In this document: piece after piece, positions 54,814 through 64,000 of the stretch
Layout: each line of letters starts with the position of its first letter
How positions within the stretch are numbered: the stretch's first letter is position 1
Assembly (NCBI RefSeq): GCF_019880225.1
Contig: NZ_CP082284.1
Span: 1,054,001 to 1,118,000, forward strand
Source of the DNA: Halobaculum rubrum
GTDB taxonomy: Archaea > Halobacteriota > Halobacteria > Halobacteriales > Haloferacaceae
Direction: 5' to 3'
Length of the DNA stretch: 64,000 bases
Notes under the pieces: generated by a model
The model's input: the letters and a program-made list of their open reading frames with translations, nothing else
Databases searched by the model: none
Told to the model about the DNA's origin: nothing
Translations under genes and position numbers: made by a program

Positions 54814-55614
54814 ATGGCCAGCATTCGATCGCTCGCGTTCGTCGGCGCCGTCGGCGGCGCCGGCACGACCCGAACGGCCGTCGAGTGCGCCGCCGCGCTC
54901 GCTCGCGACGGCCGCGAAGTCGTCGTTCTCGACGCCGCCTACGCCACCCAAGGGCTCGGCGAGTTCGTCCCGGGGCGCATCGATCCGGACATAACCGCGC
55001 TGTGTCTCGACCCGCAACGGCCGCTCGCCGACGGGCTGTACGACCTCGATGCGGCAGTCGACGGCCGAGTCGCGCTCGCGCCGGCGCAGGCACCCTTCGA
55101 ACGCGTCGCCCGCGCGACCGGCGACGACGCGGCGCAGGCGCTCGCCGACAGAGTGGCGGAGGCCGTCGCCGGCTTCGATCACGTCCTCCTCGACGTGCCG
55201 CCGGTCGCCGCCAACCCGGCGATCGCCGCGGTCCACGCCGTCGACCGCGTCGCGATCGTCGCGCCCGACACGGAACACGGCGCCGACGGTCGACGGCGAC
55301 AGCACGACGTGCTTCGGGACATCGACGCGCCCGACGGTGACCCCGCCAGCGTCGGGGTCGCCGTCTCCGGGCCCGACGAACGCGACGACGGGACCGGAAA
55401 CGGGGGCGACGAGCCCGGGACCGACGCGACGATTCCGCACGGGCCCGGCGAGTTCACCGCCGCGCCCGCGTGTCTCGGGACGGACGCGTTCGCCGCCGGA
55501 GTCGTCGCCGCAACGGAGACGCTGTTCGAGACGCAGGTGAGTGTCGAGTTCGAGGACGGCGGGGTGATCGGCCGTCTCAGCGCCGGCGTCGACCGCGTCC
55601 GCGGCGGCGAGTGA
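54814..55614 (+). CDS. MinD/ParA-like protein with altered P-loop
   Basis: 266 aa. The fold of the deviant-Walker MinD/ParA family is clear: SLAFVGAVGGAGTTRTAVECAAAL at the P-loop position, VVVLDAAYATQGLGEFVPG (Walker A'-like) and DHVLLDVPPVAANPAI (Walker B). Both conserved lysines of the MinD P-loop (K-GGxG-K-T) are absent here: GAVGGAGTTRT carries Val and Thr. ATP hydrolysis is therefore doubtful; ATP binding may persist. I recall this variant form in other haloarchaea, so it is probably a conserved lineage and not a random lesion. It opens the mcm-side cluster; TATA at 54783. Confidence 0.85.
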   Translation: MASIRSLAFVGAVGGAGTTRTAVECAAALARDGREVVVLDAAYATQGLGEFVPGRIDPDITALCLDPQRPLADGLYDLDAAVDGRVALAPAQAPFERVARATGDDAAQALADRVAEAVAGFDHVLLDVPPVAANPAIAAVHAVDRVAIVAPDTEHGADGRRRQHDVLRDIDAPDGDPASVGVAVSGPDERDDGTGNGGDEPGTDATIPHGPGEFTAAPACLGTDAFAAGVVAATETLFETQVSVEFEDGGVIGRLSAGVDRVRGGE

Positions 55615-55707
55615 CACGTACCGAGCGTCGGCCGAGGACCGGCACCCGCGCCGCTGTGAAGGCCGAGAACCATCCACAGGAGAGATCGACGGTTGCGGAG
55701 GTCCTTG

Positions 55708-55788
55708 ACATCGGTCAGTGAGTTCCGTTTCGAACGGCACGCCCACCGAAGTCAGCGCAGGTCCGAGACGGAACTCATCGACCGATGC
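55708..55788. repeat. Inverted repeat in the convergent gap
   Basis: Arms 55708-55732 and 55764-55788 (25 nt each) pair with 21 matches around a 31-nt loop; the core TGAGTTCCGT/ACGGAACTCA is perfect. It lies downstream of the MinD-like gene and could act as a terminator-like hairpin. It has no oligo-T run, so archaeal termination cannot be claimed from sequence alone. Confidence 0.6.
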
Positions 55789-55826
55789 CGCGAACGTGTG
55801 CCCCGACCGGAGTCAGCGCAGGTCCG
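55745..55826. repeat. Direct repeat copying the end of the HTH gene
   Basis: Sequence ACCG(A/G)AGTCAGCGCAGGTCCG occurs at 55745-55765 and again at 55806-55826, 61 bp apart, with 20 of 21 bases identical. The second copy contains the stop codon and last codons of the minus-strand gene (ends at 55813); the first contains a copy of the same stop. It looks like a small local duplication joined to the inverted repeat. Confidence 0.6.
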
Positions 55827-56328
55827 CGGCATCGGTCATCGTCTCCCCGAGTTCGTCCCGTTTCTCCACGCTCGCGTTGCCGCCGTCGGCGAGCGCGCCG
55901 CGGGCGACGTCGGCCAGTTCCGGAACCGGCTCGTGTGACTCGACGTAGCTCGCGAGCGCGAACGCCGCCTCGTCGCCGCCGGTCAGTTCGAGCGCGTCCA
56001 CACGCGAGATGTCGCCGGAGAGCCAGTCGCGGACCACGCGACGGGCCGTCGGCGCGAGCGGAGAGACGCCCTGTACGCCACAGCGGTGAAGCACCTTCGC
56101 GGCGGTCATCGCGGAGACGCCGGCCTCGCGGGCGCTCGCACCCACGCGCTCGCCTCGGGCGTAGTGCTCGAGCACGACCGCGGCCGCCTCGGGCGTACAC
56201 GCCAGCGCGTCGGCGTGTGGGGCGAGCCGGGACACGAGGTCGCCGCCGGTGTCGTCCACCGAGGCGACGCCGCGTGGCTCCTGCCGGGCCGTCACCTCGA
56301 TACCGGCGGCGATGTCGGAGAGCGCCAT
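55813..56328 (-). CDS. HTH-like haloarchaeal protein of unknown function
   Basis: 171 aa (start at MALSDIAAGIEV). The middle carries a helix-turn-helix-like stretch: TPEAAAVVLEHYARGERVGASAREAGVSAMTAAKVLHRCG, followed by APTARRVVRDWLSGDISRVDALELTGGDEAAFALASYVE. I do not recognise the family with certainty. It is divergent from the following TFB gene and convergent with the MinD-like gene, so it sits inside the same cluster. Confidence 0.75.
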   Translation of the reverse strand: MALSDIAAGIEVTARQEPRGVASVDDTGGDLVSRLAPHADALACTPEAAAVVLEHYARGERVGASAREAGVSAMTAAKVLHRCGVQGVSPLAPTARRVVRDWLSGDISRVDALELTGGDEAAFALASYVESHEPVPELADVARGALADGGNASVEKRDELGETMTDAADLR

Positions 56329-56465
56329 AGTCACTCTCGATCGGCATGCGGTATAAATTCGTCTGCCAGGATTGCTACGATAACGCTCGATCTCCCTGCA
56401 ACGTACCGGTTATCGGTACGTTCGAGCGCGCTCGAACGGTCGGCGGGCTGCCGATCTCCCCACAC

Positions 56466-56473
56466 ATAAGTAT
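56466..56473 (+). promoter_or_regulatory. TATA box of the second tfb gene
   Basis: ATAAGTAT centred 28 nt upstream of the ATG at 56497, the leaderless spacing. Confidence 0.5.
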
Positions 56474-56496
56474 GGGTTCGCGACCGACGTTCGAGT

Positions 56497-57357
56497 ATGG
56501 CAACGAGCACGACGGTGTGCCCGGAATGCGACGGTCGAGTGCAAGCCGACGGCGACGAGGCGGTGTGCAGCGAGTGCGGACTCGTCGTCTCGGCGGACCG
56601 TATCGATCGCGGTCCCGAGTGGCGGAGCTTCGCGGACGACGACCACGATCCCAGACGGACGGGAGCGCCGTTGACGCGCTCGCGTCACGACCGCGGGCTC
56701 TCGACCGAGATCGGTCACACGCGAGTGAAGGGCCGCAAGCGTCGCCAGTGGGCGCGGATGCGCAGACAACACACGCGAGCGCAGATCTCCTCGAAGCGGG
56801 ACCGCAACAAGGTGTACGGCTTCACCGAGATCCGGCGGATCGTCTCGTGTGCTGGACTTCCTGATTCGCTTCGCGATCAGGCGTGTTCGCTGTTCACGTC
56901 GGCGCAGGACGCCGACCTGCTTCGGGGGCGGTCGCTGGAGGGGTTCGCCGCCGCGTCGGTGTACGTCGCCTGCCGGGTCGCCGGCGTCTCGCGCACCCGC
57001 GGCGAGCTGGTCGCCGACGCCAAAGCCGACGCCGACGAGCTCCGCGCAGCCTTCGACGCGATGAACCGTGAGCTCGGCCTCCCGGTGGGTCCCATCGATC
57101 CGGTCGAGTACCTCCCGCGGTTCGCCACGGAGCTGGGACTCGACACCGACGTCGAGCGCGCCGCCCGCGAGTATCTGAGCCTCGCCCGCGACGAGGGACT
57201 CACGAACGGCCGGAACCCCTCCGGCGTCGCCGCGGCGTGTCTGTACGCCGCCGCGCGCGACGCCGGCGCCGACTGTACGCAGGCGGCCGCAGCCGACGTC
57301 GCCGACGTGACGCCCGTCACGCTCCGCTCGTCGTACGTCGAGCTTCGCGAGGAGTAG
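56497..57357 (+). CDS. tfb: Transcription initiation factor IIB (TFB), complete zinc ribbon
   Basis: 286 aa. All four zinc-ribbon cysteines are present (TVCPECDGRVQADGD...AVCSECGLVVS), then RIDRGPEWRSFADDD, the B-reader HDRGLSTEIG and two cyclin repeats (VYGFTEIRRIVSCAGLPDSL and ATELGLDTDVERAAREYLSL with NPSGVAAACLYAAARDAG). Short and distinct from the TFB at 13473. Haloarchaea use several TFBs to direct promoter sets. Its placement beside mcm and partition-type genes suggests a specialised role (inference). Confidence 0.93.
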   Translation: MATSTTVCPECDGRVQADGDEAVCSECGLVVSADRIDRGPEWRSFADDDHDPRRTGAPLTRSRHDRGLSTEIGHTRVKGRKRRQWARMRRQHTRAQISSKRDRNKVYGFTEIRRIVSCAGLPDSLRDQACSLFTSAQDADLLRGRSLEGFAAASVYVACRVAGVSRTRGELVADAKADADELRAAFDAMNRELGLPVGPIDPVEYLPRFATELGLDTDVERAAREYLSLARDEGLTNGRNPSGVAAACLYAAARDAGADCTQAAAADVADVTPVTLRSSYVELREE

Positions 57358-57398
57358 CCGGTCGGCGCCGGGGCGGGTGAACGGGTCGCCGTTCTCGG

Positions 57399-58061
57399 CT
57401 ACCCGACCGCGCAGCGCCGGACGGCCCCGGCGAGTTCCTCGACCGCTCGGGCCGCGGCCGACCCCGGAGCCGTCCTCCCCACCGGTTCCCGGGCGACGAT
57501 CGACTGTCCGAGCCGCGGGTCGGCCGGCACCGCCGTCGTCGGCGCGCCGAGCGCGCGCTCGACCGCCTCCGCCGGCGGGTCGTCGACGACGCGGTTGAGC
57601 GCGACGGCCGCGAGCCCGCAGTCGAGCTCCCGGGCCAGCTCGCGGGCCGCGACCGCGTTCGCCAGCGCCCACCGCGTCGGCGACGCGACGAGGAGACACG
57701 CGTCGGCGACGGCCAGCGGCGCGCCAGCGTCGACGCGGAGTCCGGCGGGCGAATCGACGACGACGTGTTCGTACCCGTCGACCGCGACCGCGTCCGGGAG
57801 CCGGCGCACGTCCGCCAGCCGCGCGCCCGCGAGAGTCCGACCGCACGGGAGCACGTCCACGGGCCCCGGCCGAACGGCCTCCGCGGGCGTCGCCCGACCG
57901 GCGAGCACGTCGTGGAGGTCCGGGCCGCGCTCGCGCCCGCCCGGCAGGTCCGCCATCGCGAGGTCCGCGTCGACGACGAGCGCGTCGAGCGCGTCCGCGA
58001 CGTTGTACGCCAGCGTCGACTTGCCGACCCCGCCCTTTCCGCCGGCGACCGCGACGATCAC
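57399..58061 (-). CDS. MinD/ParA-family ATPase
   Basis: 220 aa from GTG in a 4-bp overlap with the gene upstream. Canonical P-loop VAVAGGKGGVGKSTLAYNVADAL with both lysines, Walker A' VVDADLAMADLPGG and Walker B YEHVVVDSPAGLRVDAGAP; LVASPTRWALANAVA follows. It is short for a ParA and lacks an N-terminal DNA-binding extension, closer to MinD. It may position chromosome or division factors; the companion MinD-like protein at 54814 lacks the catalytic lysines. Confidence 0.92.
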   Translation of the reverse strand: MIVAVAGGKGGVGKSTLAYNVADALDALVVDADLAMADLPGGRERGPDLHDVLAGRATPAEAVRPGPVDVLPCGRTLAGARLADVRRLPDAVAVDGYEHVVVDSPAGLRVDAGAPLAVADACLLVASPTRWALANAVAARELARELDCGLAAVALNRVVDDPPAEAVERALGAPTTAVPADPRLGQSIVAREPVGRTAPGSAAARAVEELAGAVRRCAVG

Positions 58062-58885
58062 GCGAGTCGCTCCATGGCGTCCGTGGGCACGTCGACGACC
58101 TCCGCCCGCGCGACGAGCGACTCGGCTCGCTCCGCGATCCGCGCCAACGTCCGGGCGTCGGTCGCGACCAGTTCCTGTAACCCGGCGGGACCGATGCCGG
58201 CATCGAGCACCGCCGTCACGTCCGACACCGATCCGTTCTCGAGGGTCTCCGCGTGCGAGATCCGACCGTCGGCCGCCTCGAGGTAGCGCGCCACTCCCGG
58301 CGGGAGCGTCGCCGGGTCCGGATCCGACCCGTCGGAAGTCGACCGTGGAGAGGTCGATCCACCCGAGTTCGCGCCACCGGACGCCGGTCCGTCCGAACCC
58401 GCTCCATCGGCCGACGGTCCGTCGACGGCGGCTCCACTGGATTCCGGCGGGCCGCCAGCCTGACCGCCGACCGGACCGAGCGCGTCCGGCGGCGGCCTGT
58501 GATCCGCCAACTCGGCGAGCGCGTCGTTCAGCGGGTCCGCCTCATCGGTCGAGGGATCGGAAACGGCGACGAGTTCGACCGGATCCTCCGTCCCCGAAGC
58601 GTCTGGTCCTTCCCGTGAGAGCGCCTCATCGCCGGACGTGGCGCCGTCCGCGAGTCGACAGGCGTAGCCGAGCGCGAGCTCGTCGTGCGCGTCGACGACG
58701 CCCGCGTACCCGTCGGCCGACCAGCCCGGTTCGGGCACGCCGTGTCGCCGCGGCGGGAGTACCGAGCCCTGGAGACGGTTCTCGACGGCGACACGTCGGT
58801 CGACCGGCTCCGTGTTCCGGACGTGGACGGCGACGAGCGCGATGCCCGATTCAGTCGTCACGCTGGAGTCCAGCGATATCGGCAT
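58058..58885 (-). CDS. Haloarchaeal protein with disordered acidic middle
   Basis: 275 aa. N-terminal region MPISLDSSVTTESGIALVAVHVRNTEPVDRRVAVENRLQG is beta-rich and conserved-looking; a long Asp/Gly/Ser/Pro linker follows and the C-terminus forms an HhH-like helical end (VSDVTAVLDAGIGPAGLQELV and ARTLARIAERAESLV). No enzymatic motif is recognised. It overlaps the ParA gene by 4 bp, so the two are translated together and may interact. Confidence 0.72.
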   Translation of the reverse strand: MPISLDSSVTTESGIALVAVHVRNTEPVDRRVAVENRLQGSVLPPRRHGVPEPGWSADGYAGVVDAHDELALGYACRLADGATSGDEALSREGPDASGTEDPVELVAVSDPSTDEADPLNDALAELADHRPPPDALGPVGGQAGGPPESSGAAVDGPSADGAGSDGPASGGANSGGSTSPRSTSDGSDPDPATLPPGVARYLEAADGRISHAETLENGSVSDVTAVLDAGIGPAGLQELVATDARTLARIAERAESLVARAEVVDVPTDAMERLA

Positions 58886-58979
58886 GCCCGGAGTGGTCCC
58901 GTCATCGGCGATAAACGTCCGCTCGGGCGAGTCGACGGACGGAACTCGTGCGGTCGCCGGGGAGGGGTTCCGCGGTCGG

Positions 58980-59891
58980 TCAGTCGGGGCGGACGAACAC
59001 GACCGGCGCACGGAGCCACTCGCGCGCCGCCGCCGGGGTCGAGAACCGGTCGACGCCGACGACGACAGGATCGCTCCGGCGGGCGACGCGCACCGCGGCC
59101 GCGTGCGCGACGACGGCGTCGCCATCGAAGTCCGCCGGACCGTCGCCCGGTCGAGCAGTGAGAGACGCTTCGGCGACGGAGTCGCCGCCGAGGACGCACG
59201 CGGCCTCCGAGCGGAACGCCTCGACCGCGTCCGCGAAGGCTGGATACATCTCACGAGCGAGATCACGCCGGACCGTACGGCGGCGGTTATCGAGCGCGTC
59301 ACGCAGACGGAGGCGGTGCTCGCGTGCGTCGCGAGCCGCCCGCGAGCGCTCGGCGGCGTCGGCGAGCGCCTGTTGGGCCGCGACTCGGTCGGTCTCCGCC
59401 TCGGTCAGCGCCCGCGTCGCCGCGTCGAACTCCGCCTGCAGCGCGTCGACCGTCGATTCCCCGGCGTCCGCGTCGGCGTCAGTGTCCGCGTCGGCGTCCG
59501 TCCGCTCGCGAGCCTGGGCGAGCCGGCCACGGAGCGTCGCCGCCCGCTCGCGCAGCCGCTCCACGTCGGCGCCGGCCGCCGCCGCGCGACGGCGCGCTGC
59601 CGCCAGCGCGTCGCTCGTGTCGCCCGCGGCGTCGACGTCCGCGACGACGGCCTCGAGTTCGCTCCGGAGCCGACGGCACTCGTCGTCCAGTCGATGCGCC
59701 CGTCCACGCTCGCGAGCCGCGGCTGCGAGGGCACGCCACAGCGACGGGGGGCGTTCCGTCACCGTCGCCAGCGGGTCGTCCGGGTCGAGATCGAGCGCGA
59801 CACACGCGCCGTCGACGGTTCCCTCGGCGGCGGCACGCCCGAGTTCGGTCGATCCCGCCGGGGCGAACCGGTCTTCGAGCCGCTCGGTCAC
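58980..59891 (-). CDS. Coiled-coil protein of the mcm-linked cluster
   Basis: 303 aa from GTG in a GTGA overlap with the next gene upstream. The middle 150 residues are heptad-rich and charged: LDDECRRLRSELEAVVADVDA, VERLRERAATLRGRLAQARE, then a Asp/Thr repeat and LTEAETDRVAAQQALADAAERSRAARDAREHRLRL, giving an elongated SMC- or Rad50-like coiled coil without ATPase heads. The C-terminal part (REMYPAFADAVEAFRS to WLRAPVVFVRPD) is globular. It is probably a scaffold or tether; no known name. Confidence 0.78.
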   Translation of the reverse strand: MTERLEDRFAPAGSTELGRAAAEGTVDGACVALDLDPDDPLATVTERPPSLWRALAAAARERGRAHRLDDECRRLRSELEAVVADVDAAGDTSDALAAARRRAAAAGADVERLRERAATLRGRLAQARERTDADADTDADADAGESTVDALQAEFDAATRALTEAETDRVAAQQALADAAERSRAARDAREHRLRLRDALDNRRRTVRRDLAREMYPAFADAVEAFRSEAACVLGGDSVAEASLTARPGDGPADFDGDAVVAHAAAVRVARRSDPVVVGVDRFSTPAAAREWLRAPVVFVRPD

Positions 59892-60226
59892 AGCTCGGCG
59901 TCGCGCATCGCCGCCGGGTCCGGGTGATCGGCCCCGACGGCGAACTTCGCGTACGGCGTGCTCGGCGCGTCGCGGTCCTCGTAGGCGACGGCGGCCTCGC
60001 GCACCGCCGGTCGAACGGCCGCGAACTCGTTGAACGGCTCGGTGTGTTCGACCTGCACATCGGCGCCGTGTTTCGCACGGAGGCGACACGCGAGAAAGGC
60101 ACCCAACTCCGTCTCCGCGAACAGCGCCGCTCGACCGAACCGCCGGATGACGGTGTCACAGTGGCTGCGACAGACGTTGCGGAGCGTCGTCCGCGCCCCG
60201 CGGGAGTACGTCACGACGAGGATCAT
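59888..60226 (-). CDS. Small conserved haloarchaeal protein
   Basis: 112 aa: MILVVTYSRGARTTLRNVC, TVIRRFGRAALFAETELGAF, AKHGADVQVEHTEPFNEFAA. An alpha/beta protein with a beta strand start. No motif recognised. A TTTATATTT box at 60247-60255 is 25 nt upstream, so it starts its own transcript that should continue into the coiled-coil gene (4-bp overlap). Confidence 0.75.
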   Translation of the reverse strand: MILVVTYSRGARTTLRNVCRSHCDTVIRRFGRAALFAETELGAFLACRLRAKHGADVQVEHTEPFNEFAAVRPAVREAAVAYEDRDAPSTPYAKFAVGADHPDPAAMRDAEL

Positions 60227-60246
60227 ACGGTCACAGGTTCGAGATG

Positions 60247-60255
60247 AAATATAAA
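60247..60255 (-). promoter_or_regulatory. TATA box inside the mcm cluster
   Basis: TTTATATTT on the minus strand, centred 25 nt upstream of the ATG at 60226. It marks a separate promoter for the small protein and coiled-coil gene, downstream of mcm and the 94-aa gene. Confidence 0.6.
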
Positions 60256-60293
60256 CGTTCGGAGTCGCGTATCGAAGTCGAGACCGCCGCGCC

Positions 60294-60578
60294 CTACAAC
60301 GGTTCGACCAGCACGTCTTCCGGGTCGACGTCGTCGTCGACGGCGGCGAGCGAGGCGATCCGTTCGCGGGCCTCGAGTGGGTCGGCGGCGACGACGACAC
60401 GCCCCTCGCCGGGACCGTCGACGGCGTGGTACGCGCGGCGGTTCTCCACCTCGAACTCCGTTGCGTACGTCCGCAGGACGGTCGCGACGCGGCGCTCGGT
60501 GTCGGCGAGGTCGGCCTCGCCGTCCTCGAACGCGCGGATGGCGTCCTCCACGTTCCGGAGGGCTGAGATGCGGTCCAT
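60294..60578 (-). CDS. 94-aa protein downstream of mcm
   Basis: Starts MDRISALRNVEDAIRAFEDG and continues EADLADTERRVATVLRTYATEF, EVENRRAYHAVDGPGEGRVVV and DPEDVLVEPL. Helical N-terminal half, beta-strand C-terminal half. The ATG lies 5 bp after the mcm stop, so it is cotranscribed with the helicase; function unknown, possibly a regulator of it. Confidence 0.8.
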   Translation of the reverse strand: MDRISALRNVEDAIRAFEDGEADLADTERRVATVLRTYATEFEVENRRAYHAVDGPGEGRVVVAADPLEARERIASLAAVDDDVDPEDVLVEPL

Positions 60579-60583
60579 CGGTG

Positions 60584-63500
60584 TTACGTCGTCCGGACGT
60601 ACCCCGGCTTCGGCTCGTAGATCTCGCCTTTCGTTCGGAACTTCTCGATCTGCTTTTCGGCCTTGTCCGCGTCCATTCCGGCCTCCTCCGCGCGTTCGAG
60701 GATCGTGTCCACCGGTGCGCCGGGCTCGTCGTCGTACTCTTCGACGATCGTCTCGATCAGCTCCTTGACGCTCTTGATCCGGTCGCGCTGGCTCTTGCTG
60801 GTTCCGGTTTCGACGACATCGGCGTCGAACTGCCCCGTCTCCGGGTCGACGCCGATGTCCTGCAGACACGAGCGGACGATCTCGATGATGCGCGTGGCGT
60901 CCTCCTCCTCGACGGTGTCCGAGAGGCGCACGCGGGCGCTCGCCTCCGAGAGCCGCACGAGCGCCTCCAGCTTCCGGGCGGTGACGGGGACGGGCGCGTC
61001 CTCGTCGGCGCCCTTCGCCCGAAGGTCGACGTAGAACTCGCGGATCGCCGCCCGCGCCTCGTCGCTCATCGTCGGGTAGCAGTTGCGCTTGGCGTACGCG
61101 ATGTACTTCCGGAGGAGCTCGGCGTCGATGACGGGCGCGACCTCCTGAGTCACCTCGTCGACCTGCTCCTGGGTGAAGTTCGAGGTCGCCATCTCCGTGC
61201 GCTGGGTGTTCAACTCGCCCGCGTAGTTCGTCGTCAGGATGTGGTCGGCCAGCTTGGCGTCGTGCTCGGGGTCGGGGCTGTCGGTGACGGTGAAGATGAG
61301 GTCGAACCGGGAGACGAGTGCGGGCTCGAGGTCGATCTGCTCGCCGATCGGCTCGTACTGGTCGAAGCGGCCGTACTTGGGGTTCGCAGCGCCGAGGAGG
61401 GAGCACCGAGACTTGAGCGTCGCATTGATTCCGGCCTTGGAAATCGAGATGGAGTTGTGGAGCGCCACCCCCGAACTGACGAACGTGTTCGTCGGCTCGA
61501 CCGTGACATCGTACACCCACTCCGTCTCGTACTCACCCGCGTTCGCGACGGATTCGACGTCCGTTACGCGGTAGTACCGGAGGTCGCACCGGTCGGCGAG
61601 CGTCTCCGTCCGCCGTTCGGCCTCGTGCATTGCCTCGTGAACCGCCGTCGCCGCCCGTTCAGCCAGGCTCTCACGAGTCTCGGAGTCGTATCCGCCCTTC
61701 TCGGCGTAGTGGATTCGGCTCGTCGGTACGCCGTCCAACCGTTCCGCGAGTTGCCGCCCCGACCAACCGACCGCCGACCGGATCGCACCGAGTTCGCCCG
61801 CATGGTCGATCGTTTCGCGGACGGTTCCGATCCGTTCGTGAAGCGTCTCGATCTCCTCGGAGACGGTTTCGACGCGAACCCCGTACCCTTCATCGAGGTT
61901 CTCTCGGAACCGCCCTGTCTTTCCGAGTCCGGTAAGCGTTCGTAGTTCTCGGATCTCCCGAGCAGCGCTCGTCGGCAGTACGTCGTGATGACGCGGTGTC
62001 CGTTCGCTCCGGTCGACGAACTCCTCCGCCTGTTCGTGACGGTCGTCCGCCGGGTCGACGACCGCGTCGACGAATCGCTCGGTCGAGTCACCCATCACGT
62101 ACGTCTTCCACGAGTTCTCCGCGGCGTCGTGACGGATCCGGGAGGCGATCCCGAGCTTCGCGAGCGCGTCGGCGTAGTCGCGAGCCAATCGCTCTGAGGC
62201 CGTCGAAAAGGACATCGCCTCGCTCTCGACGCCGCCGTCGCCGGCGAACGCTCCGACGAGGAACCGTCGGATCTGATCCTCGGAGCCGCCGAGGACCCGG
62301 GCGGGAATCCGTTTTTCGCGAGCAGTGTGCATGAGTTCGGGGAAGTTCTCCTCGAACCACCGGTAGAGTTTGGTCGACACCCATCGCTGAGTTACTGTTC
62401 CCGCAGCGTTCGTCGTGTCAGTACTCTCGAACCCGAATACGCAGGACATCAGTTCGGCCATCCGCGCGAGAAGTCGTTCGTCCTGGTTCGAGAACCCGAT
62501 CTCGTGTGTCGACCCCGCGTACGAATGCCCCTCCGCGGTGAGGAAGCCGAGGATCTCGGCGAGGTCCCCACTCAGATTCTCCGGGAGCGTAACGTCGCGT
62601 TCCGTCCCGACGTGAGGCTCGTCGGCGAGGTCGACTGGCTTGGCGGAGTTCGGGAGTTTTCGGGGTGCCGGAACGAACGCTCCCTCGTCGATGTCGTTCG
62701 CGTCGACCGTTCCGATCGAACCGTCGTCGTCGACGAACATCGGGTGATCCGGAGTTACGAGTACGTCGCGGCCGTTCGAGAACGTTACACGGACGAACTC
62801 CTCGGGTGCCTCGTGTCTGCTCACTCGATCGATCGGGAGTTTCGTCGTCTCGTTCGTCTCGAAGTCGACGGAGTGAACGCGAGCGTCCTCGATCGGAAGG
62901 ATCTCACAGTCGACACCCTCTACCACGTCGTCCGAGCGTGCAGCCATTCGATCGTCCACGAACTCGCCGATCCGAACGCGTCGGCCATCCGCGAGGAACA
63001 CCTCCGATCTCGGGTGATATGACTGCTGTTCGAGCGCTTCGTGCATTGCCGACCGGTCGTTCGAATCCATCTTATCCAGCTCGTCGACGGCGGCGATCCC
63101 CTTGTCGGCGAGCACGAGCGCACCGGCCTCCAACGTCCACTGCTGGCCGTCGCCGAAATCGTCGCGAACAGCTGCAGCAGTAAGCCCTGCAGCCGAGCTG
63201 CCCTTCCCGGATGTGTAGACCGACCGCGGAGCGATGTTCTGAATGTATGAGAGCATCTGGGAGTTGTGGGAGACCACCCCGTTCGAGACGTAGCTGTGCG
63301 TTCCTTCGACTTCGAGGTCGTAGACCCACTCCTCGTTGGGTTCGACGCGTTCGATGGACTCGATCCGTTCCCACGTTCGCTTGAACGACGTAGATCGGGG
63401 CGCCGACTCCGACGTGCGAATAGCGGCCGTTCCGCCGTCGGGTAGCGGCTCTGACACGGCAGCGATCGCTGTCGATTCGGAGAGTTGGTCGGCACGAACC

Positions 63501-64000
63501 GCATGGTGGCTCTCACCTGCTTGGACGAACAGCGGATGCGACGGCGTCATCTCCAACTCTCGCCCGCTGTTCGTGCGGACCCGGAGCATCTCATCGGGTG
63601 CCTCACGCTTCCACACCTTCGTCGCCCGCCGCGACTCGATATCGCCGTTCGGTCCGAGCGACGGCACCGAGAAGTCGGCGTGGTCCCACACCCCGTCGTC
63701 AACTGGCTTCGAGTCGTCGAGATTCGACTCGACCAACTCCCGGATCGGCACGTCACGGCCGTCTGCGAGCGAGACCCGCGTGTCCCCGTCGAGACACTTC
63801 CCCGTACCCGGATCCCCTATCAGAAGCATATGTAAGTCGCCCCGGATCCGCGACCCGTCCGGGAGGTGCTTCGTCACCCCCGAGAACAGTTGAAGGATCA
63901 TCGAGAGCTTCTCCTGCTCGTAGCCGTAGATGGAGGGCGCGACCGAGGCGACCATCTCGTCGTAGATGTTCTCGTGCGTCGAGAGCTCGAGGATCTCCTG
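60584..64000 (-). CDS. mcm: Replicative DNA helicase MCM (5' part outside window), with two inteins
   Basis: The frame is open to the window edge; the AAA+ domain and C-terminus (437 extein residues) are visible. Extein motifs: SIYGYEQEKLSMILQLFSG, Walker A GDPGTGKS, ALVLADKGIAAVDELDKM (Walker B), the sensor/arginine region ALVSRFDLIFTVTDSPD, and the C-terminal winged helix ending KPGYVRTT. MCM is the replicative helicase. Two inteins interrupt it: one between Lys and Ser of Walker A, and one after EALEQQ. Both must splice out before the ATPase can work. The downstream 94-aa gene starts 5 bp after the stop. Confidence 0.95.
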   Translation of the reverse strand, partial: QEILELSTHENIYDEMVASVAPSIYGYEQEKLSMILQLFSGVTKHLPDGSRIRGDLHMLLIGDPGTGKCLDGDTRVSLADGRDVPIRELVESNLDDSKPVDDGVWDHADFSVPSLGPNGDIESRRATKVWKREAPDEMLRVRTNSGRELEMTPSHPLFVQAGESHHAVRADQLSESTAIAAVSEPLPDGGTAAIRTSESAPRSTSFKRTWERIESIERVEPNEEWVYDLEVEGTHSYVSNGVVSHNSQMLSYIQNIAPRSVYTSGKGSSAAGLTAAAVRDDFGDGQQWTLEAGALVLADKGIAAVDELDKMDSNDRSAMHEALEQQSYHPRSEVFLADGRRVRIGEFVDDRMAARSDDVVEGVDCEILPIEDARVHSVDFETNETTKLPIDRVSRHEAPEEFVRVTFSNGRDVLVTPDHPMFVDDDGSIGTVDANDIDEGAFVPAPRKLPNSAKPVDLADEPHVGTERDVTLPENLSGDLAEILGFLTAEGHSYAGSTHEIGFSNQDERLLARMAELMSCVFGFESTDTTNAAGTVTQRWVSTKLYRWFEENFPELMHTAREKRIPARVLGGSEDQIRRFLVGAFAGDGGVESEAMSFSTASERLARDYADALAKLGIASRIRHDAAENSWKTYVMGDSTERFVDAVVDPADDRHEQAEEFVDRSERTPRHHDVLPTSAAREIRELRTLTGLGKTGRFRENLDEGYGVRVETVSEEIETLHERIGTVRETIDHAGELGAIRSAVGWSGRQLAERLDGVPTSRIHYAEKGGYDSETRESLAERAATAVHEAMHEAERRTETLADRCDLRYYRVTDVESVANAGEYETEWVYDVTVEPTNTFVSSGVALHNSISISKAGINATLKSRCSLLGAANPKYGRFDQYEPIGEQIDLEPALVSRFDLIFTVTDSPDPEHDAKLADHILTTNYAGELNTQRTEMATSNFTQEQVDEVTQEVAPVIDAELLRKYIAYAKRNCYPTMSDEARAAIREFYVDLRAKGADEDAPVPVTARKLEALVRLSEASARVRLSDTVEEEDATRIIEIVRSCLQDIGVDPETGQFDADVVETGTSKSQRDRIKSVKELIETIVEEYDDEPGAPVDTILERAEEAGMDADKAEKQIEKFRTKGEIYEPKPGYVRTT
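61454..63022 (-). mobile_element. Full-length intein with LAGLIDADG endonuclease in MCM
   Basis: 523 aa. It begins with Ser instead of the more common Cys (SYHPRSEVFLADGRRV), contains block B (TPDHPMFV), two DOD endonuclease motifs (LGFLTAEGH and LVGAFAGDGG), then a probable HTH region (IRSAVGWSGRQLAERLDGV) and ends VSSGVALHN followed by extein Ser (EQQ/SISISKAG). The acidic residues of both DOD motifs are present (Glu and Asp), so it may still be an active homing element. Confidence 0.9.
63263..63796 (-). other. Mini-intein in the MCM Walker A motif
   Basis: 178 aa, starting with catalytic Cys (CLDGDTRVSLADG) and ending VVSHN followed by the extein Ser. Block A (CLDGDTRV), block B (TPSHPLFV) and blocks F/G (WVYDLEVEGTHSYVSNGVVSHN) are present; there is no homing-endonuclease region. 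The junction GDPGTGK/S disrupts the P-loop itself, a recurrent intein site because it is strictly conserved. Confidence 0.9.

Follow-up and report, generated by a model that had tools for sequence, protein, structure and literature searches.

The genes beside mcm in the stretch of Halobaculum rubrum DNA analysed here (64,000 nucleotides, hereafter the window) belong to a real, widely conserved neighbourhood of independent small units, and not to one chromosome-partition machine. The interpretation that we favour, with confidence just short of even, is that this neighbourhood harbors a positioning pair made up of MinD1 and DUF7857 and, separately, a dispensable complex of DUF7855, DUF7856 and DUF7858 that is probably DNA-associated. 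This narrows a vague 'MinD-TFB cluster by mcm' to two testable pairings, one of MinD1 and DUF7857 and one of DUF7855-DUF7856 and the often unlinked DUF7858.

Units of the mcm neighbourhood

All genes that an earlier, sequence-only reading had placed in this region were recovered where it had put them (Table 1). Five of the encoded proteins match the consecutive Pfam families DUF7854 to DUF7858; because these matches lie far above the cut-off, we regard all five as genuine genes.

Table 1. Genes and promoter elements of the block and the adjoining mcm (positions in the window)
Feature	Coordinates	Strand	Evidence
Pseudo-MinD, MinD/ParA-like pseudo-ATPase lacking the Walker A lysines	54814..55614	+	AAA_31 E 2.5e-6
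DUF7858, 171 aa, weakly HTH-like, divergent from TFB	55813..56328	-	PF25257 E 7.1e-77
TFB with a zinc ribbon and a pair of TFIIB repeats	56497..57357	+	PF00382 E 2.2e-36; PF08271 E 9.9e-11
MinD1, intact deviant Walker A GKGGVGKST	57399..58061	-	TIGR01969 E 2.2e-34; 1hyq E 8.5e-42
Protein with a DUF7857 domain, a low-complexity linker and a helical C-terminal region	58058..58885	-	Pfam PF25256 E 1.8e-33
TATA box TTTATCGC of the DUF7857-MinD1 unit	58908..58915	-	Sequence; AT peak near -30 in 115 distinct upstream regions
DUF7856, protein with a coiled-coil hairpin, start codon GTG	58980..59891	-	Pfam PF25254 E 2.8e-49
DUF7855, 112 aa, small alpha/beta protein, strongly conserved	59888..60226	-	Pfam PF25253 E 3.6e-57
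TATA box TTTATATT of the DUF7855-DUF7856 unit	60248..60255	-	Sequence; AT peak near -30 in 132 distinct upstream regions
DUF7854, 94 aa	60294..60578	-	Pfam PF25252 E 2.7e-33
mcm, replicative helicase, 3' part, intein-bearing; neighbour, outside all other units save that of DUF7854	60584..64000	-	

Gene order beside mcm passes the check across Halobacteria that the sequence-only reading had proposed: it recurs in loci of several haloarchaeal families as mcm-DUF7854-DUF7855-DUF7856-DUF7857-MinD1, followed by TFB, DUF7858, pseudo-MinD and HIT. The helicase gene adjoins in 128 of 139 loci bearing DUF7855; the other 11 have no mcm within the stretch examined, which in some cases was ended by a contig end. 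Within this order, conserved TATA boxes divide the block into mcm-DUF7854, DUF7855-DUF7856, DUF7857-MinD1, TFB, DUF7858 and pseudo-MinD. DUF7854 starts 5 bp past the mcm stop codon, has no AT peak of its own in 118 distinct upstream regions, and is probably transcribed by read-through from mcm. TFB and pseudo-MinD lie on the opposite strand, and the block is therefore not one operon. As for the several 4-bp overlaps reported previously, only two exist, DUF7855/DUF7856 (kept in 118 of 133 loci) and DUF7857/MinD1 (kept in 106 of 112 cluster loci). The promoters showed no common element upstream of their TATA boxes.

The units also move and disappear separately. Both the DUF7857-MinD1 pair and the TFB-DUF7858-pseudo-MinD block relocate independently of mcm, as separate blocks; pseudo-MinD travelled with TFB and DUF7858 in all seven such loci fetched, and it travels with HIT as well. 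In several species, most or all of the block is deleted with mcm intact alongside, and masked sequence was ruled out as the reason for gene absence in 18 genomes, where mcm is present and there are no runs of N. The block, repeatedly deleted while the adjoining mcm is retained, is dispensable. The naturally deleted genomes provide ready comparisons, and caution against taking the block as part of core replication.

DUF7855, DUF7856 and DUF7858 as an inherited set

With few exceptions, DUF7855, DUF7856 and DUF7858 are retained or lost as a group, whether linked or far apart. The 120 genomes with DUF7856, of 195, are also those with DUF7858 (phi 0.989), the sole mismatch being a DUF7858 stub of 36 residues. 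The new result is that this co-inheritance persists when the two genes are unlinked, and that their co-loss spans genes that are retained: in 18 genomes from seven genera they lie 69 kb to 2.4 Mb apart on one contig, genome G125 has lost DUF7854 to DUF7856 together with DUF7858 and retains DUF7857, MinD1, TFB and pseudo-MinD between and around them, and genome G138 has lost DUF7856 and DUF7858 and kept DUF7855, DUF7857, MinD1 and TFB. Mapped on a 71-genome mcm tree, the presence of DUF7856 matches that of DUF7858 in every row; the traits change 13 times, and supported branches force at least seven of these changes. Block deletions of contiguous genes account for most co-losses and would by themselves produce co-occurrence; the non-contiguous co-losses are few (G125 and the f4 clade).

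DUF7855 shows 73% mean column identity over 44 sequences, and its AlphaFold2 model has a pLDDT of 88. An orthologue of DUF7856 is modelled with a pLDDT of 94 as a hairpin of a 35- and a 77-residue helix, flanked by N- and C-terminal strands. Sequence profiles of DUF7855, DUF7856 and DUF7858 gave no credible match in the PDB, and Foldseek searches with the DUF7855 and DUF7856 models returned nothing significant; the HTH similarity of DUF7858 is weak, with matches only at E 0.02–0.1. In the open full-text literature, we found no paper naming HVO_0221–HVO_0224, HVO_0227–HVO_0230, DUF7856 or DUF7504, and no interaction, localisation or deletion data for DUF7854 to DUF7858.

This set may have a role in chromosome biology. 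DUF7855 and DUF7856 would form a complex that the HTH-like DUF7858 probably tethers to DNA, and in which the long coiled-coil hairpin modelled for DUF7856 would serve as a rigid arm. The three proteins may then constitute an accessory nucleoid- or replication-associated complex used by most, but not all, haloarchaea. A bolder version has, in our judgement, little chance of being right as a whole: that the three form a haloarchaea-specific DNA-organising complex, an SMC-type arm without its own ATPase, in which DUF7858 binds DNA and the DUF7856 hairpin and DUF7855 bridge DNA or act at replication forks, the complex being encoded beside mcm and optionally driven by MinD1-DUF7857.

MinD1, its partner gene and the neighbouring TFB and pseudo-ATPase

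DUF7857 and MinD1 constitute a nearly inseparable, overlapping gene pair of an ATPase and a partner, with its own promoter-like TATA box. The ATPase had been labelled ParA; it is an archaeal MinD, whose profile matches PDB entry 1hyq far better (E 8.5e-42) than ParA/Soj (about 1e-9), although its score against TIGR01969 (118.8) lies under the curated cut-off of 201.75. The Walker A motif in the window, GKGGVGKST, recurs in this form or as GKGGVGKTT in 109 of 115 gene models, the D-x-P-A-G columns of the Walker B region are invariant (20 sequences). Where an amphipathic membrane-targeting helix was looked for, the C-termini look short and variable on inspection of the alignment, with no conserved extension seen.

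DUF7857 adjoins MinD1 wherever a relocated or second copy of it was fetched (13 of 13 loci). In its occurrence across genomes, this partner gene of MinD1 is only loosely correlated, in contrast to DUF7856 and DUF7858. Eight loci, several of them from Natronomonas, keep DUF7857 without MinD1, and DUF7857 therefore has some use alone. The DUF7857 C-terminal helical region was considered as the part that docks MinD1, and rejected, since those eight loci contain both N- and C-terminal parts of DUF7857 and no MinD1, and since 16 loci have MinD1 without a detectable DUF7857 C-terminal part. The DUF7857 profile, too, found no credible match in the PDB.

By gene numbers, HVO_0220 (mcm) to HVO_0226 (TFB) of Haloferax volcanii form the orthologous locus, and four Haloferax loci match the gene order of the window. 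By gene order, MinD1 is thus the equivalent of HVO_0225, and the TFB that of HVO_0226. MinD1 is named in two studies (PMC11621097, PMC11312570); no function is described for it (PMC11621097). Haloferax from which all four minD genes have been removed, that for MinD1 among them, shows normal growth and division (PMC11312570). Like other MinD proteins, MinD1 may act as an ATP-driven dimer, its localisation set by its partner DUF7857, and the pair would then position some cargo or act redundantly with other MinDs. A partner gene, DUF7857, can now be named for this protein of a model archaeon.

The P-loop of the second MinD relative had been described as damaged. Its Walker A lysines are indeed missing, but this is not local damage, as GGxGTT[R/W] recurs in aligned orthologues, among which the lysine-free motif GGxGTTR is conserved; the protein is, by its sequence, a conserved pseudo-ATPase. 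Its profile matches MinD, McdA-type and ParA structures at about 1e-5 to 1e-7. The TFB, with a zinc ribbon (PF08271) and two cyclin-like repeats (two PF00382 stretches), is one of six two-repeat TFBs in the Halobaculum rubrum genome. The suggestion that it gives the block a transcriptional programme of its own is unsupported: the promoters share no element except the TATA box.

Alternative readings and known systems

It is unlikely that the block is a cell-shape or motility locus, with MinD1 acting in positioning like Haloferax MinD2 and MinD4 and the TFB belonging to a motility and shape regulon. Motility does depend on both MinD2 and MinD4, and MinD2 has a further effect on cell shape and on where CetZ1 lies (PMC11621097, PMC11312570); a layered model proposed for the regulation of motility and shape lists HVO_0226 as a TFB variant (PMC13286277). 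However, the motility defect of the quadruple minD deletion equals that of minD2/minD4 alone, so that no contribution of MinD1 is seen (PMC11621097), HVO_0226 has also served as an RT-PCR reference transcript (PMC7714728), and nothing connects DUF7854 to DUF7858 with motility.

A single module for partition or replication control, linked to MCM and served by the TFB as a transcription factor of its own, had been the best guess of the sequence-only reading and now appears quite improbable. Such a module would fit the conserved adjacency to mcm, and partition systems usually have parts of the kinds seen here: a coiled coil, an HTH-like protein and an ATPase of the MinD/ParA class. By contrast, the separate conserved TATA boxes, the missing shared promoter element, the independent relocation of sub-blocks and the deletion of the block next to an intact mcm all count against it, as do an ATPase that is MinD rather than ParA, the absence of any ParB-like Pfam match among the eight neighbour proteins, and the normal growth and division of the quadruple minD mutant of Haloferax (PMC11312570).

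We also give little weight to neutral synteny, in which housekeeping genes without a common function would stay neighbours because rearrangement is slow: the separate TATA boxes agree with it, and the farther a gene lies from DUF7855, the fewer loci retain it (PRPS in 20 of 61 loci, UDG in 13), but DUF7856 and DUF7858 are co-inherited when unlinked and co-lost across retained genes, and DUF7857-MinD1 and TFB-DUF7858-pseudo-MinD move as units. Viral contigs gave no sign of a viral origin, being without any relative of DUF7855, and an anti-phage defence system was rejected, PADLOC giving only matches to the DUF7856 coiled coil (JetC, LmuB, LeoBC; best E 5.7e-5).

Several known systems are comparable in part. 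ParABS and SegAB likewise place a deviant Walker A ATPase beside a candidate DNA-binding protein, but the ATPase here is of the MinD clade and has no ParB-like neighbour by Pfam. The hairpin of the DUF7856 model, set between small N- and C-terminal alpha/beta parts, resembles SMC, condensin and Rad50 heads, and SMC heads top its Foldseek list (E 0.012), but with a TM-score below 0.3; DUF7856 has no Pfam match to an SMC ATPase domain, and NCBIfam matches only coiled-coil stretches of SMC models. Pseudo-MinD, in which the loss of the Walker A lysines is conserved, may be an atypical ATPase of the CpaE/TadZ-like kind, a MinD/ParA fold without these lysines. MinD2-HVO_0596 of Haloferax is likewise a MinD with a small operon partner, in a synteny kept across haloarchaea (PMC11312570); in gene arrangement, that partner lies downstream of minD2, whereas DUF7857 lies upstream of MinD1 and overlaps it.

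The neighbourhood and its genes

The neighbourhood beside mcm is genuine and conserved in haloarchaea, and its genes make up two or more functional sets, one being the MinD1-DUF7857 pair and another DUF7855-DUF7856 together with DUF7858, the latter often unlinked. The genes named in the sequence-only reading are all present in the window at the positions it gave, and the evidence is against one obligatory MCM-coupled module. Five of them are members of the consecutive Pfam families DUF7854-DUF7858, with every score far past the cut-off. The ATPase next to DUF7857, previously called ParA, is a MinD instead, its family profile matching archaeal MinD (1hyq) at E 8.5e-42 versus only ~1e-9 for Soj/ParA; by gene order it corresponds to Haloferax MinD1, HVO_0225, and the TFB to HVO_0226. 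This TFB, one of six two-repeat TFBs in the Halobaculum rubrum genome, has a zinc ribbon and both repeats. The second MinD/ParA-like protein (pseudo-MinD) lacks the Walker A lysines, taken earlier for a damaged P-loop; because the lysine-free motif GGxGTT[R/W] recurs in orthologues from many genera, it is a conserved pseudo-ATPase rather than the product of a damaged gene.

Features of the window and, where a locus handle (L) is given, of other loci
Feature	Position	Description	Source
DUF7854	60294-60578		Pfam
DUF7855	59888-60226		Pfam
DUF7856	58980-59891		Pfam
DUF7857	58058-58885		Pfam
MinD1	57399-58061 (-)	220 aa ATPase	TIGR01969, E 2.2e-34
DUF7858	55813-56328		Pfam
pseudo-MinD	54814-55614 (+)	MinD/ParA-like
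mcm	60584-64000	two intein-like insertions
near-repeats around 'AGTCAGCGCAGGTCCG'	55735-55840	in and beside the DUF7858 end; resemble a local duplication
DUF7504 gene	L088 8941-9668; L107 9185-10004; L112 9222-10004	KaiC-like, DUF835-related
DUF7857-MinD1, convergent to ATPase-DUF7125 fusion	L201 4765-7330
same	L203 5002-7636
same	L205
same	L207

Gene order, relocation and transcription units

Across 60 genome stretches and 80 named loci, the suspected conservation was borne out: the order mcm, DUF7854, DUF7855, DUF7856, DUF7857, MinD1, TFB (opposite strand), DUF7858, pseudo-MinD (opposite strand), HIT is shared by Haloferax, Halobaculum, Halobellus, Halogranum, Halorussus, Haladaptatus, Natronomonas (without MinD1), Halosimplex and other genera. 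The 4-bp overlaps are kept between DUF7855 and DUF7856 (118 of 133 loci) and between DUF7857 and MinD1 (106/112). No DUF7858 was found beyond the taxonomic order in the phylum sample, and no DUF7855 relatives in viral contigs. In many genera a DUF7504 gene lies between DUF7854 and DUF7855; it is missing in the window and in the Haloferax loci seen.

In averages taken over many genera, AT content peaks sharply at about -30, the archaeal TATA-box position for short-leader transcripts, upstream of DUF7855, DUF7857, TFB, DUF7858 and pseudo-MinD; no such peak precedes DUF7854, DUF7856 or MinD1. This pattern most likely indicates six separate units, predicted as mcm-DUF7854, DUF7855-DUF7856, DUF7857-MinD1, TFB, DUF7858 and pseudo-MinD, and relocation patterns agree with them. 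TFB-DUF7858-pseudo-MinD-HIT has moved as a block in Halorubrum-type genomes and genome G137 (L190-L195, L199), and DUF7857-MinD1 has moved elsewhere as a pair in some Halorubrum-type genomes, G137, G142, family f4 and some genera of family f3. In G058 and G161 there is a second such pair (L208, L209) besides the near-mcm one, and DUF7857 adjoins MinD1 at each of the 13 loci fetched in which DUF7857 is relocated or present as a second copy. In f4 and some f3 genera, the pair lies in convergent orientation to a gene that fuses a MinD-type ATPase with a KaiC-like DUF7125 domain.

Co-inheritance and natural deletions

DUF7856 and DUF7858 occur together in 120 of 195 genomes, with one mismatch, a 36-residue DUF7858 stub in G056 (phi 0.989; contiguous deletions make up most losses). 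DUF7855 occurs in four additional genomes, once as a fragment only, and DUF7857 reaches just phi 0.56-0.60 against these families. Linkage alone does not explain the coincidence, because DUF7856 and DUF7858 lie 69 kb to 2.4 Mb apart on one contig in 18 genomes of seven genera and on separate contigs in others, and because G125 has lost DUF7854-DUF7856 and DUF7858 while retaining DUF7857-MinD1-TFB-pseudo-MinD, and G138 has lost DUF7856 and DUF7858 while retaining DUF7855, DUF7857, MinD1 and TFB. In an mcm phylogeny covering 71 genomes, with fragments scored as absent and many branches weakly supported, both genes require 13 changes, at least seven of them forced by supported branches, and are concordant in every independent pair.

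The block is dispensable for replication as such, since mcm is retained in all 18 inspected genomes without an intact DUF7855-DUF7858 set. Different genes occupy the HIT-mcm interval in G110, of the window's genus; HIT immediately follows mcm in G067; DUF7854 and pseudo-MinD persist as stubs in G012; the pseudo-MinD side alone remains in G190 (genus g7); and TFB still stands beside mcm in G044 and the f4 genomes fetched. At L076 (G101), an N-terminal DUF7856 stub immediately precedes a C-terminal DUF7858 stub, a probable scar left when DUF7857, MinD1 and TFB were deleted.

Possible roles and known systems

Haloferax with all four minD genes deleted grows and divides unaffected (PMC11312570), and the motility defect of this quadruple deletion equals that of minD2/minD4 alone (PMC11621097). 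A network proposed for motility and shape includes HVO_0226 (PMC13286277), whose transcript has also been used as a reference (PMC7714728). The open full-text literature yielded no paper that mentions HVO_0221-HVO_0224 by name. The model of DUF7855 (pLDDT 88) shows a small alpha/beta protein that matches nothing in the PDB significantly, and DUF7858 has weak HTH similarity and nothing stronger. DUF7856 was modelled from the orthologue at L167, since the window protein has a divergent N-terminus, and forms a helical hairpin, one helix spanning 77 residues, between small N- and C-terminal alpha/beta parts (pLDDT 94). We hypothesize that the DUF7855-DUF7856-DUF7858 set might act in partition or replication. 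SMC, cohesin and condensin heads come first in the Foldseek list for DUF7856, yet at E 0.012 and TM <0.3 they do not constitute a match.
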